64,000 nt of DNA from an uncultured Clostridia bacterium (GTDB lineage Bacteria > Bacillota > Clostridia > Oscillospirales > QAKW01). The DNA lies in assembly GCA_944385895.1 (NCBI GenBank), contig CALWYZ010000001.1:62001-126000 (forward strand), written 5' to 3'. The translations under genes and the position numbers were made by a program. This document shows, piece by piece, positions 16,818-56,243 of this stretch; within the stretch, counting starts at the first letter, position 1, and each line of letters begins with the position of its first letter. Below the pieces are notes generated by a model. It ran no database searches, was not told the origin of the DNA, and worked only from the letters and a program-made list of their open reading frames with translations.

Positions 16818-16846
16818 TTGAAATTACTTATTTGTTATTGTATAAT
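16818..16846 (+). promoter_or_regulatory. Promoter of the trpS operon
   Basis: TTGAAA (16818-16823), 17-base spacer, TATAAT (16841-16846), about 80 bases before the trpS start. The leader is too short for a T-box. Confidence 0.7.
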
Positions 16847-16928
16847 GGCTTTAATTATGCTATTATTTAAAAGTACGATTATAATATGTTGGTATTTAAT
16901 AAAAGTATCTGAGAGGTATAATATAAGT

Positions 16929-17924
16929 ATGGAAGAGCAAAAGATAATTTTCAGCGGTATACAGCCAAGCGGGACAATAACGCTTGGCAATTATATAGGA
17001 GCAGTACGGAATTGGCCGCTTGTATCGGAGCTTGGATTCGGTATATTTTCAGTTGTGGATATGCATGCGATAACTGTCAGAAATACCCCTGCCGACCTGC
17101 GTGCTCGTACATTGTCTACGCTTGCTGTTATTCTGGCCTCAGGTGTGGATCCGGAGAAGAATCTTGTGTTTATTCAGAGCCATGTCCCTGCACATGCTGA
17201 GCTTGCATGGATACTTAACTGTTATACAATGTTCGGAGAACTGGGAAGAATGACTCAGTTTAAGGATAAATCCAAACAGCATGCAGACAATATTAACGCG
17301 GGATTGTTTACTTATCCCACTCTGATGGCGGCGGATATTCTTCTGTATAATACAGATCTTGTTCCTGTAGGGGTTGATCAGAAGCAGCATCTGGAGCTTG
17401 CAAGAAATATAGCAATTCGCTTCAACGGAATATACGGTGACGTCTTCAAAATTCCTGAGGGGCATATCCCACAGCTGGGAGCAAAAATAATGTCATTGTC
17501 CTCACCCGACAAAAAAATGAGCAAGTCAGACCCAAATCCCAAATCATATATAAGCATAACCGAAGGAAAAGACTCTATAATAAAGAAATTTAAGAGTGCT
17601 GTCACAGACAGTGACAATAAAATAGAGTTTTCCGACACCAAGCCGGGGATTTCCAATTTGCTTACTATTTACAGCGTAATGACTGGCTGTACGGTGCAAG
17701 AGGCGGTATCACGCTTTGACGGACGGGGTTACGGTGAGTTTAAACTCGCAGTAGGAGAAGCGGTGGCAGACGGGCTTGAGCCCTTGCGCCAAAAATACGA
17801 ATATTTTATGCAAAATAAGGATTATCTTGAAAAAATTTATACAGAAAGCGCGGATAAGGCATGTCGTCTTTCATACCGCATGCTGTCAAAGGTTCAGAAA
17901 AAGATAGGATTCATAAAAAAATAA
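16929..17924 (+). CDS. trpS: Tryptophanyl-tRNA synthetase
   Basis: A 331-residue class I synthetase that charges tRNA-Trp. ATG 16929 is chosen over an upstream in-frame ATG because it yields the family N-terminus MEEQKIIFSGIQPSGTITLGNYIGA and follows a GAGAGG. The HIGH-equivalent is TLGN within PSGTITLGN; the KMSKS loop is KKMSKSDPNPKS. Length matches bacterial TrpRS (about 330). It is the first gene of a unit continuing with a TagO/WecA-like transferase 16 bases downstream, an unusual pairing but with no intervening terminator. Confidence 0.97.
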   Translation: MEEQKIIFSGIQPSGTITLGNYIGAVRNWPLVSELGFGIFSVVDMHAITVRNTPADLRARTLSTLAVILASGVDPEKNLVFIQSHVPAHAELAWILNCYTMFGELGRMTQFKDKSKQHADNINAGLFTYPTLMAADILLYNTDLVPVGVDQKQHLELARNIAIRFNGIYGDVFKIPEGHIPQLGAKIMSLSSPDKKMSKSDPNPKSYISITEGKDSIIKKFKSAVTDSDNKIEFSDTKPGISNLLTIYSVMTGCTVQEAVSRFDGRGYGEFKLAVGEAVADGLEPLRQKYEYFMQNKDYLEKIYTESADKACRLSYRMLSKVQKKIGFIKK

Positions 17925-17940
17925 AGGAAGCCGACAAACA

Positions 17941-19014
17941 ATGGGTAAAACAGATTACATTTTTCTTGCCGGTGCGTTTATAATGGCACTTGTGCTTTCA
18001 TTTGCATGTACGCCTATAGCGCGCAATTTTGCGTATAAGATAGGCGCAATAGACGTGCCCAGGGATAAACGCAGAATGCATAAAAAACCTATTCCGCGGC
18101 TTGGCGGACTTGCGATATTTTCCGGTTTTTATGTTTCGGCGCTTGTTTTTTGCACTCAATATATGACAAAAGAAATACGGGGCGCGCTTATAGGCGCGAT
18201 AGTAATCGTTGCGTTGGGAATATTTGATGATGTGCTGGCTCTAAAGCCGTATCAGAAATTTGTATTTCAGCTTATCGCCACAGCAATTCCCGTGTATTTC
18301 GGTGTACGTATCTCAAGCCTGCCCAATATTTTCGGCGGCGGCAGCGCTTATATTACTCTTAATATATACTTGCAATATATAATCACAATCATTTGGCTTT
18401 TGGGAATATTAAACGCAGTAAACCTGATAGATGGTTTGGACGGTCTTGCGGTAGGAGTATCTGCTATAATGGCTGTTTGCGTAACTGTAATTGTAATATT
18501 GCTCCAGACTCCTGCTGTCGCCATTATGGGAGCGGCTCTTGCCGGCGCATGCCTTGGTTTTATCCCATATAATTTTAACCCCGCAAAGCTTTTTATGGGT
18601 GATACGGGGGCAATGTTTATTGGATATATGCTTGCTGTTATGTCTGTTATGGGACTGTTCAAGGCGTATGCCATAATAGCGTTTGCAATACCGTTTCTGA
18701 TTTTCGGACTGCCGATATTTGATATGATTTTTGTGTCCATGCGCCGTATGCTGCATGGAAAATCTCCGATGTCGGCCGACAAGACTCATTTGCATCACAG
18801 ACTTATAGAACTGGGATTTACTCAAAAACAGGCGGTAGCAATAATGTATGCAATTGCCGCGGTTTTAGGCCTTATTGCCGTACTTATGGCAGGAGAGGGA
18901 TTTGTACGCGCCATTGTAATCGTTATTATTGCATTTATTGTGGTAATAATGTGTTCTTTGATTATGTACAAACACAGAATTCATAAAGGAATAAAAAATG
19001 ATGAACAAAATTAA
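17941..19014 (+). CDS. tagO: Undecaprenyl-phosphate sugar-1-phosphate transferase (TagO/WecA type)
   Basis: A 357-residue polytopic membrane enzyme that moves a HexNAc-1-phosphate (usually GlcNAc-1-P) from UDP to undecaprenyl phosphate, starting wall teichoic acid or another secondary wall polymer. Family motifs are clear: DVPRDKRRMHKKPIPRLGG, the metal-binding Asp-rich FDDVLALKP, NLIDGLDGLAVGVS, and MGDTGAMFIGYML; the C-terminal loop SADKTHLHHRLIELGF holds the His-rich cytoplasmic motif of this PNPT family. About ten membrane segments. AAAGGAAG precedes the ATG. Its 3' end overlaps the next gene, UDP-GlcNAc 2-epimerase, by 17 bases, which makes a shared ManNAc-containing linkage unit likely. 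MraY itself is excluded by length and motifs. Confidence 0.93.
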   Translation: MGKTDYIFLAGAFIMALVLSFACTPIARNFAYKIGAIDVPRDKRRMHKKPIPRLGGLAIFSGFYVSALVFCTQYMTKEIRGALIGAIVIVALGIFDDVLALKPYQKFVFQLIATAIPVYFGVRISSLPNIFGGGSAYITLNIYLQYIITIIWLLGILNAVNLIDGLDGLAVGVSAIMAVCVTVIVILLQTPAVAIMGAALAGACLGFIPYNFNPAKLFMGDTGAMFIGYMLAVMSVMGLFKAYAIIAFAIPFLIFGLPIFDMIFVSMRRMLHGKSPMSADKTHLHHRLIELGFTQKQAVAIMYAIAAVLGLIAVLMAGEGFVRAIVIVIIAFIVVIMCSLIMYKHRIHKGIKNDEQN

Positions 19015-20146
19015 AGTAATGACTGTTTTCGGCACTCGTCCCGAGGCGATAAAAATGGCTCCTTTGATAAAGGAATTGGAAAATCGGGATTTGATTGAGA
19101 GTATAGTCTGCCTTACGGGTCAGCATCGTGAAATGCTCACTCAGGTTCTTGACACATTTAAAATAAAAGACGATTTCAATTTAAATATCATGCGTCCCGG
19201 ACAAACTGTAACTACGATTACAACAGACGTTCTTTCCGGTATGGAAAAGATACTTTGCGATGTCAAGCCGGATATAATGCTTGTTCACGGAGATACAAGC
19301 ACTTCATTTGCCGGTGCGCTTGCGGCGTTTTATGCCGGAGTTCGGGTGGGTCATGTAGAAGCGGGTCTTCGCACTTATGATAAATACTCTCCGTTTCCGG
19401 AAGAGATGAACAGGCAGATGACCTCGCGTCTTGCCGACCTTCATTTTGCTCCTACTGTTTCCAATAAGCAAAACCTTTTAAAGGAAAATGTAACACAAAA
19501 CGTTTTTGTTACCGGAAATACAGTTATTGATGCCCTGTCGCATACTGTTAAACCGGATTACTGCTTTGCAGACAATACTCTTGCAAAAATTGATTTCAAC
19601 AAATATAAATATATACTGCTTACAGCCCACCGCCGTGAGAATCTCGGTGCGCCGCTGAGGCAGATCTGTACCGCTGTACGTAAGATAGCTGAAAGTAATT
19701 CCGATGTCAGATTTATTTATCCTATGCATTTAAATCCGTTGGTGCGCAATACGGCAACGGAAATACTGGGCGGGCTGAATAATGTCATATTGATAGACCC
19801 TGTTGATGTCTGCGATATGCATAATCTTATGCAACGCTGCTATATGGTGATGACAGACAGCGGAGGACTTCAGGAAGAGGCTCCCGCACTGGGTAAACCG
19901 GTTCTTGTTTTGCGTACTGAAACTGAACGTCCGGAGGCAGTTGCCGCCGGAACTGTAAAGATAGCCGGTGTAGATACCAATACTATTATAGAGATGGCAA
20001 ATACTCTGATACGTGATAAAAACGCATATGACCTGCAGGCGGCAGCTGTAAATCCGTACGGGGACGGAAATGCCTCTCAGCGCATAGCCAATGCGATACT
20101 ATATTATTTCGGTTTAGGCGATAAACCAAAGGATTTCGGTGATTGA
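18998..20146 (+). CDS. mnaA: UDP-N-acetylglucosamine 2-epimerase (non-hydrolysing)
   Basis: A 382-residue cytoplasmic enzyme interconverting UDP-GlcNAc and UDP-ManNAc. Seen: VMTVFGTRPEAIKMAPLIKEL at the N-terminus, the LTGQHREML motif, LVHGDTSTSFAGALAAFY, the HVEAGLRTYDKYSPFPEEMNRQM block with catalytic acidic residues, LTAHRRENLG and the DSGGLQEEAPALGKPVLVLR allosteric/active-site stretch. Full length for the family. The start overlaps the TagO-like gene by 17 bases with AAAGGAATAAAAA upstream. UDP-ManNAc would feed a TagA-type ManNAc transferase such as the one at 50597-51340. Confidence 0.95.
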   Translation: MMNKIKVMTVFGTRPEAIKMAPLIKELENRDLIESIVCLTGQHREMLTQVLDTFKIKDDFNLNIMRPGQTVTTITTDVLSGMEKILCDVKPDIMLVHGDTSTSFAGALAAFYAGVRVGHVEAGLRTYDKYSPFPEEMNRQMTSRLADLHFAPTVSNKQNLLKENVTQNVFVTGNTVIDALSHTVKPDYCFADNTLAKIDFNKYKYILLTAHRRENLGAPLRQICTAVRKIAESNSDVRFIYPMHLNPLVRNTATEILGGLNNVILIDPVDVCDMHNLMQRCYMVMTDSGGLQEEAPALGKPVLVLRTETERPEAVAAGTVKIAGVDTNTIIEMANTLIRDKNAYDLQAAAVNPYGDGNASQRIANAILYYFGLGDKPKDFGD

Positions 20147-20151
20147 TCTTA

Positions 20152-21177
20152 ATGAAAAGAAGTAAAAAAAGTTTGCAAAATTCCCAAACGGAAGGGGCTG
20201 CGACTAAAATAAAGTTTGCAAAACGTCCGGTAGGTAAATTTGTTTTGTCTATGATTTATACATGGTTTTTATGCGGCGTGGTCAGCCTTTTTCTGCTTTA
20301 CGGTCCATGGGACTGGTTCAGAACAACGCTTATAACATCCTCAGAAACCACAATTAATCATAAATACATAGCAAGGCTGTTCTATTCCCAGTCTATGATA
20401 GATGAGGTTATGAGCAAGAACAAGGTAATAGATCTTGATACCCAGACGGATGCTAACAGTATCAGTGCAGACACTGATGTCAATGAGGTAGTGCTTACAG
20501 ATATAAGCGAGGGCAATTATAAGGCATGGATGCTGGAAATTTCCGATCCGTCGAGTGTATTTCTCGGTGTTTCGGAGTATTTTGGCGTCAAAGGTCAGAA
20601 GCTTCCGTATCTTATGAACAACTATCCCAATGCGCTGGCCGGTATTAATGCCGGCGGTTTTGGCGACGCAAACGGCTTTGGAAACGGCGGAATACCGATG
20701 GGTCTTGTAATGTCCGAGGGCGAGATGCTGTATATGCCGAATAAAAGCTCATATAACATTGTCGGATTCAACACGGATAATGTCCTTATTCTCGGAAATT
20801 TCAAAAAAAGCGAGCTCAATGATTTGAATTTACGCGACGCGGTAGAATTTACACCATTTTTGATAATAAACGGAGAGGCGGCAACAATAAAAGGCAACGG
20901 CGGCTGGGGGCTTGCACCGAGAACCGCTATCGGCCAGAGAAGGGACGGTACGGTTGTTTTTGTTGTCGTAGACGGACGTTCCGTGTCGTCAGCAGGCGTT
21001 ACAATTAAGACGCTTCAGGATATAATGATCGAGCAGGAATGTTATAATGCAGCCAACCTTGACGGCGGTTCTTCTACTGTTCTTCAGTATAACGGAAATG
21101 TTGTAAACAAACCCAGCGGCTCTGATGCCGACGGAATGAGATTTTTACCCAACGCATTTCTTGTCGCTGATAATTGA
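20152..21177 (+). CDS. Membrane-anchored phosphodiester glycosidase domain protein (NAGPA-like)
   Basis: A 341-residue protein with an N-terminal cytoplasmic Lys-rich tail and one membrane segment (about 30-52: SMIYTWFLCGVVSLFLLYG), placing the rest outside. The outer region carries the NAGPA/phosphodiester glycosidase fold: AGINAGGFGDANG, GIPMGLVMSEGE, the RTAIGQRRDGTVVFVVVDGR block and the C-terminal NLDGGSSTVLQYNG. Family members hydrolyse GlcNAc-1-phosphodiesters or act on wall-linked sugars. ATG 20152 is used; an in-frame TTG nine bases earlier is possible but the ribosome site is weak either way. It directly follows the tagO-mnaA pair, supporting a role in wall-polymer turnover or attachment (inference). 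Confidence 0.85.
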   Translation: MKRSKKSLQNSQTEGAATKIKFAKRPVGKFVLSMIYTWFLCGVVSLFLLYGPWDWFRTTLITSSETTINHKYIARLFYSQSMIDEVMSKNKVIDLDTQTDANSISADTDVNEVVLTDISEGNYKAWMLEISDPSSVFLGVSEYFGVKGQKLPYLMNNYPNALAGINAGGFGDANGFGNGGIPMGLVMSEGEMLYMPNKSSYNIVGFNTDNVLILGNFKKSELNDLNLRDAVEFTPFLIINGEAATIKGNGGWGLAPRTAIGQRRDGTVVFVVVDGRSVSSAGVTIKTLQDIMIEQECYNAANLDGGSSTVLQYNGNVVNKPSGSDADGMRFLPNAFLVADN

Positions 21178-21191
21178 TACGGGGGCTGCAA

Positions 21192-21992
21192 ATGACTGAT
21201 ATTTCCGTAGTTGTCGGTTATTCCGATCAGCAATGCTGCCGATTTGTGATTGATTTTCTGGAGACGTTTGAATATAATGTCGCCGATACGGTTGAATATG
21301 GATTTGATTGTATTTTCGCTGTTAATAAATTCAATCCCGATATTGTCATCTGTGATGCGTTTATGTACGACTTGAATGTTTGTCAGGTGATAGAAAAAGT
21401 AAAATCAATGGGTGTTGCCGACCCTGCATTTGTAGTCGTTACCAGATCAAACATAAGTCATTTTTTAGATATTTCAGGCTGCAGGGATATCAGCTTTTAT
21501 TGTCTTATGCCGTTTGATTATTTATCATTTGATAAAAAGCTAAGAGAAATAGTGACTCGTAAAAATAGCCCTCCTGAATTTTTCAAGCCTGATGTTTTTA
21601 CAGGCTTATCATATCCGATCTCTGAGCATTCTTACGATAGTGTAAAGTGCGTCAGCTGCATCAGAAATAATTTGAATAAACTGGGAATACCCGCTAAAAT
21701 GCGCGGATATAAATATATTTTGGAATCGGTACTGCTTGCGCTTGATGACAGTGAGATTTTGTATTCGCTTACAAAACGCCTGTATCCAAAGCTTGCAAAA
21801 ATAGCAGGCGTTTCTTCGGCAAGCGTAGAACATGCAATCAGAGTAGCGATAAAATACTGCTGGGATAATGGTAATTACATAGCCGTAAACAATATGTTCG
21901 GCAGTACGGTAAAGCCCGGAGGGTGCCCTACAAACGGTCAGTTTATTTCCATATTGACAGAGATTGTAAAAAGTGAACTCGGACTTATTTAA
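21192..21992 (+). CDS. Spo0A-like regulator with a degraded receiver domain
   Basis: A 266-residue protein. ATG 21192 has a CGGGGGC ribosome site. Residues about 1-125 follow a response-regulator receiver fold, and residues about 155-262 match the Spo0A DNA-binding domain (NKLGIPAKMRGYKYILESV, LYPKLAKIAGVSSASVEHAIRVAI, NMFGSTVKPGGCPTNGQFI). The phospho-acceptor position is kept (Asp55 in IVICDAFMYD, with Thr84), but the metal-binding acidic pair is missing (GYSDQQ in place of a DD/DE pair) and the invariant Lys is replaced by Met106 (CLMPFD for the usual xLKPFD). It is therefore probably a Spo0A relative with altered or no phosphorylation rather than a standard sporulation master regulator. 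Last gene of the trpS unit, followed by a terminator. Confidence 0.85.
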   Translation: MTDISVVVGYSDQQCCRFVIDFLETFEYNVADTVEYGFDCIFAVNKFNPDIVICDAFMYDLNVCQVIEKVKSMGVADPAFVVVTRSNISHFLDISGCRDISFYCLMPFDYLSFDKKLREIVTRKNSPPEFFKPDVFTGLSYPISEHSYDSVKCVSCIRNNLNKLGIPAKMRGYKYILESVLLALDDSEILYSLTKRLYPKLAKIAGVSSASVEHAIRVAIKYCWDNGNYIAVNNMFGSTVKPGGCPTNGQFISILTEIVKSELGLI

Positions 21993-22005
21993 GAGTTTTT
22001 TCCAG

Positions 22006-22037
22006 TCAAGGCATCATCATGATGCCTTGATTTTTTA
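22006..22037 (+). terminator. Terminator after the Spo0A-like gene
   Basis: Perfect 11-pair stem TCAAGGCATCA/TGATGCCTTGA with a three-base loop, then a T-run. Confidence 0.92.
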
Positions 22038-22075: not shown

Positions 22076-22103
22076 TTGACATATTTTTTTATGCTGTTAT
22101 AAT
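22076..22103 (+). promoter_or_regulatory. Promoter of the MarR-ABC operon
   Basis: TTGACA (22076-22081), 16-base spacer, TATAAT (22098-22103). Confidence 0.85.
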
Positions 22104-22113
22104 GTATAACGGT

Positions 22114-22131
22114 TAGTTAATGCATTAACTA
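22114..22131. promoter_or_regulatory. MarR-type operator
   Basis: TAGTTAATGCATTAACTA is a perfect 18-base palindrome starting ten bases after the -10 box, so it covers the transcription start. MarR proteins bind such AT-rich dyads, and the next gene encodes one: autorepression is the natural reading. Confidence 0.7.
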
Positions 22132-22154
22132 TTTGGATGTAAAGGGTGAGTTGT

Positions 22155-22592
22155 TTGAGGGACAAATATTCAAATAATGTTCATCTAATGATGAGTGCGC
22201 TTAGGCTTCACAGAATCAGGTGCGAACAGCTTGTGGGTCAGCTCGGGATACATCATTCGCAGCATCAGCTGCTGATGTATCTGTCCAAATCACGCAACGC
22301 ACCGTCTCAGAAAGATATAGCCAAGGAATTTGGCGTAAGCTATGCTGCGGTAGCAGTAACGATAAAAAAGCTGGAAAGCAGCGGATACATATCAAGAACG
22401 ACAGATGATAAAGATATGCGTCAGAATAGGATACAGATAACGCAGCAGGGAAGGAAGATAATAGATAGATCCCGTTCCATTTTTCATTCTGTTGACAAGT
22501 GTATGTTTAAGGATTTTAATGACGATCAACTCAATGAGTTTACAAATTATTTAATGAAGATAGAAAAAAATCTGAGCGATGAGGAGAGGTGA
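22155..22592 (+). CDS. MarR-family transcription repressor
   Basis: A 145-residue winged-helix regulator. The TTG at 22155 is preferred over the in-frame GTG at 22146 because the GGGTGAG ribosome site lies just before it and overlaps the GTG. The HTH is SQKDIAKEFGVSYAAVAVTIKKLESSGYI (about 50-80) and the wing is RTTDDKDMRQNRIQIT; flanking helices form the dimer interface. It has a perfect palindromic operator over its own start site and is followed 9 bases later by two ABC exporter genes, so it most likely represses a drug- or metabolite-responsive efflux pump. Confidence 0.9.
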   Translation: MRDKYSNNVHLMMSALRLHRIRCEQLVGQLGIHHSQHQLLMYLSKSRNAPSQKDIAKEFGVSYAAVAVTIKKLESSGYISRTTDDKDMRQNRIQITQQGRKIIDRSRSIFHSVDKCMFKDFNDDQLNEFTNYLMKIEKNLSDEER

Positions 22593-56070: not shown

Positions 56071-56103
56071 AAGAGCGCGTATGTTCTCAAGTTGACAAAC
56101 AAG

Positions 56104-56185
56104 TACTTTGTCCTTTTGCCTGAGAGATTAACGCTGCCTGCGTTTTGCCCCTTCGGCACTCAATTAAATGAGCTTCTCCAAAGTT
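56104..56185 (-). promoter_or_regulatory. Glycine riboswitch (single aptamer)
   Basis: In minus-strand sense the conserved core is clear: UUUGGAGAAGCUC, then GUGCCGAAGGGGCAAA, then AUCUCUCAGGCAAAAGGACA, the three hallmark blocks of the glycine aptamer. Only one aptamer is seen; the sequence 5' of it (56186-56230) folds into a CUUGCAG/CUGCAAG stem instead of a second core, as in singlet forms that carry a vestigial partner helix. A terminator hairpin follows before the AGCS symporter gene. Transcription would start near 56237. Confidence 0.92.
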
Positions 56186-56243
56186 CTGTCGGCTTGCAGT
56201 CTCTGCTGCGGCAGTTTCTGCAAGTTTCATTCAGACTGTCAAA

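Follow-up and report, generated by a model that had tools for sequence, protein, structure and literature searches.

The window, that is, the whole 64,000-nucleotide stretch of DNA analysed here, contains a forward-strand operon whose last gene encodes a paralogue of Spo0A (positions 21192-21992; hereafter the window copy). The source genome is referred to as G000 and its other spo0A gene as the main copy; G001, G002 and G003 are related genomes. In the list below, the names trpS, tagO and mnaA are read from the sequences.

16818-16846, forward strand: promoter-like TTGAAA-17-TATAAT upstream of trpS (11 of 12 positions; consensus match only)
16929-17924, forward strand: trpS, first gene of the operon (start picked by eye within the listed frame 16818-17924)
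17941-19014, forward strand: tagO-like undecaprenyl-phosphate sugar transferase, same operon (present in G002)
18998-20146, forward strand: mnaA-like UDP-GlcNAc 2-epimerase, same operon (conserved in G002)
20143-21177, forward strand: phosphodiester glycosidase (NAGPA, PF09992, by Pfam), same operon, ending 14 bases before the ATG of the paralogue
21192-21992, forward strand: Spo0A paralogue of 266 aa, with a pseudo-receiver at about 1-125, a low-confidence linker at 134-146 and a Spo0A_C effector at about 147-263
21219-21224, forward strand: codons 10-11, Tyr-Ser replacing the acidic metal-binding pair (alignment with solved Spo0A receivers)
21354-21356, forward strand: codon 55, the acceptor site, which is Asp here and Asn in the G003 homologue (receiver alignment)
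21507-21509, forward strand: codon 106, Met replacing the invariant Lys (receiver alignment)
22004-22032, forward strand: terminator-like hairpin of 13 pairs directly after the paralogue (consensus match only)
22146-22592, forward strand: MarR-family regulator with its own promoter-like site and two ABC exporter genes behind it (same neighbours in G001 and G002)

The open frame containing the window copy spans 21174-21992 on the forward strand, and the ATG at 21192, preceded by GGGGG, is its likely start. The gene closes a tight trpS-tagO-mnaA-glycosidase run that is kept in G002, and the genes downstream of it are kept in both G001 and G002. This last place in the run, between a promoter-like site and a hairpin, points to expression during growth; the window copy might also be connected in some way with the envelope genes beside it. 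Outside the operon, a perfect TTGACA-16-TATAAT promoter-like site (12 of 12, a consensus match) lies before the MarR gene at 22076-22103, and between that site and the gene a palindrome seen by eye, TTAGTTAATGCATTAACTA, is likely to be the gene's self-operator (site and palindrome together within 22076-22145). The window also carries a glycine riboswitch aptamer on the reverse strand at 56098-56191, with a score of 62.2 bits where the gathering score is 32.

The window copy is genuine and encodes an intact regulator of the Spo0A type, whose receiver domain is a pseudo-receiver. Its effector domain matches Spo0A_C (PF08769) at 99 bits against a cut-off of 25, its Response_reg match stays below threshold (17.3 bits against 30.2, both by Pfam), and its score against the Spo0A equivalog TIGR02875 is 118.9 bits, short of the cut-off of 200. 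In an AlphaFold model (pLDDT 88.9, 51 aligned sequences), the receiver and effector folds are both kept: the modelled receiver aligns with 1qmp_A (Z 18.2, rmsd 2.2, 124 residues aligned) and with 1qmp_B (TM 0.83 on target), and the modelled effector with 1lq1_C (Z 19.5, rmsd 1.5, 110 residues aligned) and with the 1lq1 chains generally (TM 0.88-0.92 on target, by Foldseek). A preliminary description of this DNA had read the receiver pocket as degraded, with Asp55 kept and Met106 in place of Lys, and alignment with solved receivers bears this out: the acidic pair is Tyr10-Ser11, Asp55 and the Thr are present and the Lys is Met106, so that the quintet reads YS / D / T / M and is changed at three of five positions. 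This broken pocket argues against phosphorelay input. The Thr (Ser in G002) and the aromatic residue of Y-T coupling are retained, and an Arg directly follows the Thr; a small residue at that place is the general rule in true receivers, according to the main text of a review of pseudo-receivers (PMC12632262). The Arg is common to the three intact orthologues and so to three of the four homologues, the fourth (G003) having Asn as its acceptor residue. As the receiver fold is present and at least one of the five active-site residues is absent, the domain classes as a pseudo-receiver; with Asp55 retained, it falls outside the aspartate-less receivers (ALR).

The part of the protein expected to contact DNA has also changed. 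The recognition helix reads ASVEHAIRV in the window copy and SRVERAIRH in main copies; at the five positions taken to be the recognition-helix residues of the solved DNA complex, this amounts to S-E-H-R-V against R-E-R-R-H, with only two of five residues kept. We found that the first Arg and the last His have been lost in all nine of the divergent second copies fetched in the family (four of the window-copy clade and five of a sister genus, g2), and that R-E-R-R-H is retained in 69 of the 72 best copies of the order. With three of five positions altered, the window copy probably reads DNA sites other than 0A boxes, and its binding to ordinary 0A boxes is doubtful. The earlier view of the DNA-binding domain as well kept thus holds for the fold, not for the recognition helix; likewise, of the suggestion that the protein regulates 0A-box genes without a phosphorelay, the second half agrees with the pocket and the first half does not sit well with the helix. 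A scan of nine promoter regions for the TGTCGAA core, allowing up to one mismatch, found no perfect core near the operon or upstream of spoIIAA, spo0A and spoIVA, and the window as a whole holds five perfect cores, against about eight expected.

The source genome, that of a gut bacterium, measures 1.95 Mb in 30 contigs and is 99.8% complete. It contains two Spo0A_C genes, so the window copy is not its sole Spo0A homologue. The other, with a canonical recognition helix, is:

G000 C1:4115-4978, about 79 kb upstream of the window copy: main spo0A

A canonical spo0A, for which the preliminary description had advised a search, therefore exists as far as a second gene is concerned, but its pocket is equally broken (Q-P / D / T / I, a Gln-Pro pair and Ile for Lys). 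This rules out a contrast between a degraded paralogue and a true Spo0A and, because the main copy's pocket is broken too, antagonism of a phosphorylated Spo0A, as one might read the earlier proposal that the window copy antagonises a true Spo0A, is no longer a natural model. Nor does the operon set the window copy apart in the way supposed: its place after tagO, mnaA and the glycosidase is as described, but the main spo0A also lacks an adjoining spoIVB and sits between an amidase gene and an AlaX-like gene, with a LysM protein gene nearby (names from sequence). SpoIVA and, as read from sequence, a spoIIAA-spoIIAB-sigF cluster are present, so the lineage has not simply abandoned its sporulation genes. 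A block of about 900 bases, running over the amidase gene and the promoter of the main spo0A into the start of its coding sequence, is 99-100% identical between two species (L033:3313-4212 in G000:C1 and L035 in G001:C3), with flanking DNA about 72-90% identical; recent exchange or strong constraint could underlie this identity.

Orthologues of the window copy occur in G001 (77% identity) and G002 (56% identity), and Asp55 is invariant among the three intact genes, which suggests that the residue still matters. The homologue in G003 is shortened and badly eroded, lies in a different neighbourhood and has Asn as its acceptor residue; the genus can thus do without the gene. The frame is not due to chance, as it is common to three species with dN/dS about 0.09 in the closest pair. 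Estimates are 0.088 for G000-G001 and 0.198 for G000-G002, with dS saturated, and 0.085 for the effector domain in the closest pair; the window copy is under purifying selection. In phylogenetic analysis, the four paralogues form one clade (SH-aLRT 99), which is placed beside the main copies of the genus with moderate support (81) and flagged long branches; the enclosing set comprises all 20 rows of the family plus one long-branch row (SH-aLRT 100). In the sister genus g2, five second copies group as a separate clade (support 97). On this tree, the paralogue appears to have arisen within the family of the source bacterium. In G002, which is 99% complete and has SpoIVA, the paralogue is the only Spo0A_C gene found. 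We do not accept that G002 lives on the paralogue alone: a search of that genome gave no match to the LysM-protein neighbour of the main copy and no ortholog of the AlaX-like neighbour (the sole match being a 911-aa frame at 24% identity), and with both tested neighbours missing, incomplete assembly accounts for the absence as readily as a deletion does.

Loss of the pocket extends well beyond this genus. We scored the best copy per genome, preferring copies with a canonical-type helix, and called a pocket intact if all five residues were present; under a lax rule, any D/E pair was accepted as the acidic pair. The order was represented by 80 genomes, of which 75 gave a match and 72 a scorable receiver, G015, G021 and G151 being excluded because their matches were weak or fragmentary. 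The rest of the class was represented by 104 genomes, after removal of four that belong to the order; matches came from 87 of these and scores from 79, with G040, G083, G086, G088, G112, G135 and G136 dropped as fragments or short frames and G109 for masked letters. No genome among the family's 12 has an intact pocket; the count is 10 of 72 for the order as a whole (16 of 72 by the lax rule) and 59 of 79 elsewhere in the class (P below 1e-10 for order against rest of class by Fisher's exact test, kinship ignored). Since 20 of the 79 genomes outside the order also have a broken pocket, this is a strong enrichment and not a private trait. The acceptor residue in the order is D in 49 genomes, E in 14, N in 8 and S in 1, i.e. 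the Asp has been replaced in 23 of 72. On a tree of 144 main copies, built with the five pocket columns removed, a minimum of 12 changes is required for the intact or broken state (lax rule) and of 19 for the acceptor residue, so that pocket loss looks recurrent rather than a single event. Among 40 relatives, of which 36 were scored and crossed by hand, SpoIVA is present in 22 of the 27 whose pocket is broken (lax rule) and in eight of the nine whose pocket is intact; four of the five broken-pocket genomes without SpoIVA are only 60-85% complete.

Other forms of the effector domain were encountered in these genomes. Many carry Spo0A_C frames of about 105-185 aa that are too short to include a receiver and resemble the phage-borne forms described in PMC10294663; examples are found in G008 (C19, C39, C46), G024 (C2, C9), G006 (C38), G017 (C18), G028 (C20), G149 and G170. 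Three near-complete genomes of 0.8-0.9 Mb in family f29 (G043, G076 and G124; L142, L140 and L141) have three Spo0A_C matches each, and in their full-length Spo0A the acceptor residue is Glu and an Arg of the recognition helix is replaced by Lys.

A HATPase_c scan of the source genome returned seven histidine-kinase-like genes, each adjoining a response regulator. Three matches of 630-641 aa were set aside, by size only, as GyrB/MutL/HtpG types; judged from sequence, two of them (C9:34922 and C9:38210) lie among iron-sulphur/hydrogenase-type genes and one (C12:68194) beside a DNA methyltransferase-like gene. A search with a G002 protein recovered a degenerate orphan that the scan had missed, which rules out a complete absence of orphan kinases and means that further degenerate ones may exist:

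G000:C10:66273-67379 (L241:1501-2607), reverse strand: orphan PAS-DHp-ATPase protein, adjoining galE

This protein carries a conserved C-terminal tail, has no significant Pfam match and shows weak NCBIfam similarity to kinase cores; its model (pLDDT 79.8) has a PAS, two-helix and ATPase arrangement and matches histidine kinases. Inspection of an alignment by eye shows neither the H-box His nor the G1 and G2 boxes of the ATP site, and G000 yielded no orphan kinase whose ATP site is intact. Its orthologues in G001, G002 and G003 are 73%, 50% and 31% identical, respectively, with a recognisable ATPase domain kept in the latter two. Similar orphans in G004, G006, G018, G019 and G028 align weakly, and at 11-17% identity to the G000 protein outside the genus, they are at most putative homologues across the order. 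Among nine aligned kinase-like proteins, the canonical His was seen by eye only in G028, whose Spo0A is intact; G018 has an intact Spo0A yet no His at the canonical place, and in G006 the His is one residue off. In eight genomes scanned for pairs (adjacency by eye), the three with intact Spo0A were not obviously richer in orphan kinases, which speaks against a simple story of co-loss. We treat a link between the orphan and Spo0A, or their co-degeneration, as a lead only.

The window copy can be set against several known systems. It shares with Spo0A (TIGR02875, PF08769) a receiver fold and Spo0A_C effector of clear common descent, but falls under the equivalog cut-off, has a broken pocket and a changed helix and does not lie in a sporulation locus. 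Like the pseudo-receivers and atypical response regulators treated in PMC12632262, PMC4395418 (a survey of ALRs) and PMC4125116 (BldM-WhiI), it has a receiver fold without phosphotransfer residues. According to the first of these, DD2 is the position most often lost and replacement of D by Glu is common, as also seen in the order of the source bacterium, and action by amount, ligand or heterodimer has precedents; a word search of its main text finds no mention of Spo0. A point of difference is that a developmental master regulator is affected here, over much of an order. The second Spo0A of Clostridium thermocellum (Clo1313_0637 / Cthe_3087), 49% identical to that of B. subtilis as given in the available text of PMC4890492, is likewise a paralogue alongside the sporulation Spo0A, but divergence of the window copy is much greater. 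The truncated spo0A carried by phages (PMC10294663) similarly frees Spo0A_C output from phosphate input; it has no receiver, whereas that of the window copy is present and predicted to be folded. Among the matches listed from the open-access literature, with most subscription journals outside its scope, no description of a Spo0A with a broken pocket was found, nor any of its spread over an order; for Spo0A with a pseudo-receiver, the single paper listed concerns cmrRST of C. difficile.

We consider the window copy to be a duplicated, neofunctionalised and phosphorylation-independent Spo0A paralogue, in a lineage whose Spo0A has left phosphate control (probability about 0.62). The duplication would have occurred within the family. 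The Spo0A that was duplicated probably had a broken pocket by then, and the DNA-recognition helix would have changed afterwards. The paralogue, being last in its operon, is probably produced while the cells grow, and is most likely a dimeric pseudo-receiver transcription factor; its activity would be set by the level of the protein, or by binding of a ligand or partner to its receiver, and it would act at sites differing from the canonical 0A box. We infer that it is not phosphorylated in the cell, and dimerisation, control by amount or ligand and different DNA sites would follow the same reading. The invariant Asp55 and the retained Thr/Ser and Y-T aromatic count against this reading, and the first two of these would be expected if the protein were still a phospho-switch, with Asp55 phosphorylated by an unusual route that dispenses with the acidic pair and the Lys. 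We regard this as improbable, given that both metal-ligand positions and the Lys are changed, that an Arg stands next to the Thr, that the G003 homologue has Asn and that the only orphan found in G000 lacks an intact ATP site.

A rather unlikely alternative, by analogy, is that the window copy serves as partner or antagonist of the main Spo0A, the pseudo-receivers forming heterodimers that bind a different site or none, so that the ratio of the two proteins tunes sporulation. The two copies share a fold and an ancestor, the paralogue would come from a growth-time operon, and the BldM-WhiI heterodimers of Streptomyces are a model case in the main text of PMC12632262; the presence of the paralogue in G002, where the main copy was not found, is against it. 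The long branches, the degraded pocket and the eroded, relocated G003 copy would also suit a decaying duplicate without a role of its own, but frame, operon and sequence are kept in three species at dN/dS of 0.09-0.20, with a low value in the effector of the closest pair as well, and we regard this view as improbable. Least probable is that the paralogue is replacing Spo0A as the sporulation regulator of the genus: its status as sole copy in the nearly complete, SpoIVA-bearing G002 would fit, but the main copy's neighbours are absent as well, as a missing stretch of assembly would give, and the recognition helix is altered. More tentatively than for the neofunctionalised paralogue itself, we propose a phosphate-free sporulation switch, in which, over much of the order, the Spo0A receiver and the orphan kinase-like protein, as a possible partner, would have lost phosphotransfer and would communicate by binding (ligand or protein to pseudo-kinase to pseudo-receiver), while duplicated Spo0A copies take on new DNA sites. 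The source genome would be the complete case, with both Spo0A pockets dead and an orphan without recognisable H-box, G1 or G2.

All endospore formers are held to start sporulation through Spo0A phosphorylated at a conserved Asp, according to the available text of two reviews (PMC11210211, PMC3533761). In contrast, the order studied here keeps the Spo0A DNA helix nearly intact (69 of 72) and mostly SpoIVA, yet most of its genomes miss at least one phosphotransfer residue, and these bacteria may decide on sporulation by another route. More surprising than the window paralogue is this wider setting, an order that bears spore genes while its Spo0A has in many cases departed from the phosphorelay; the window paralogue would be a next step, a freed Spo0A copy with a new DNA helix. 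If this is true, sporulation in many uncultured gut bacteria would be neither predictable from their kinases nor inducible through a phosphorelay, and the order would offer natural experiments on a response regulator escaping its kinase.
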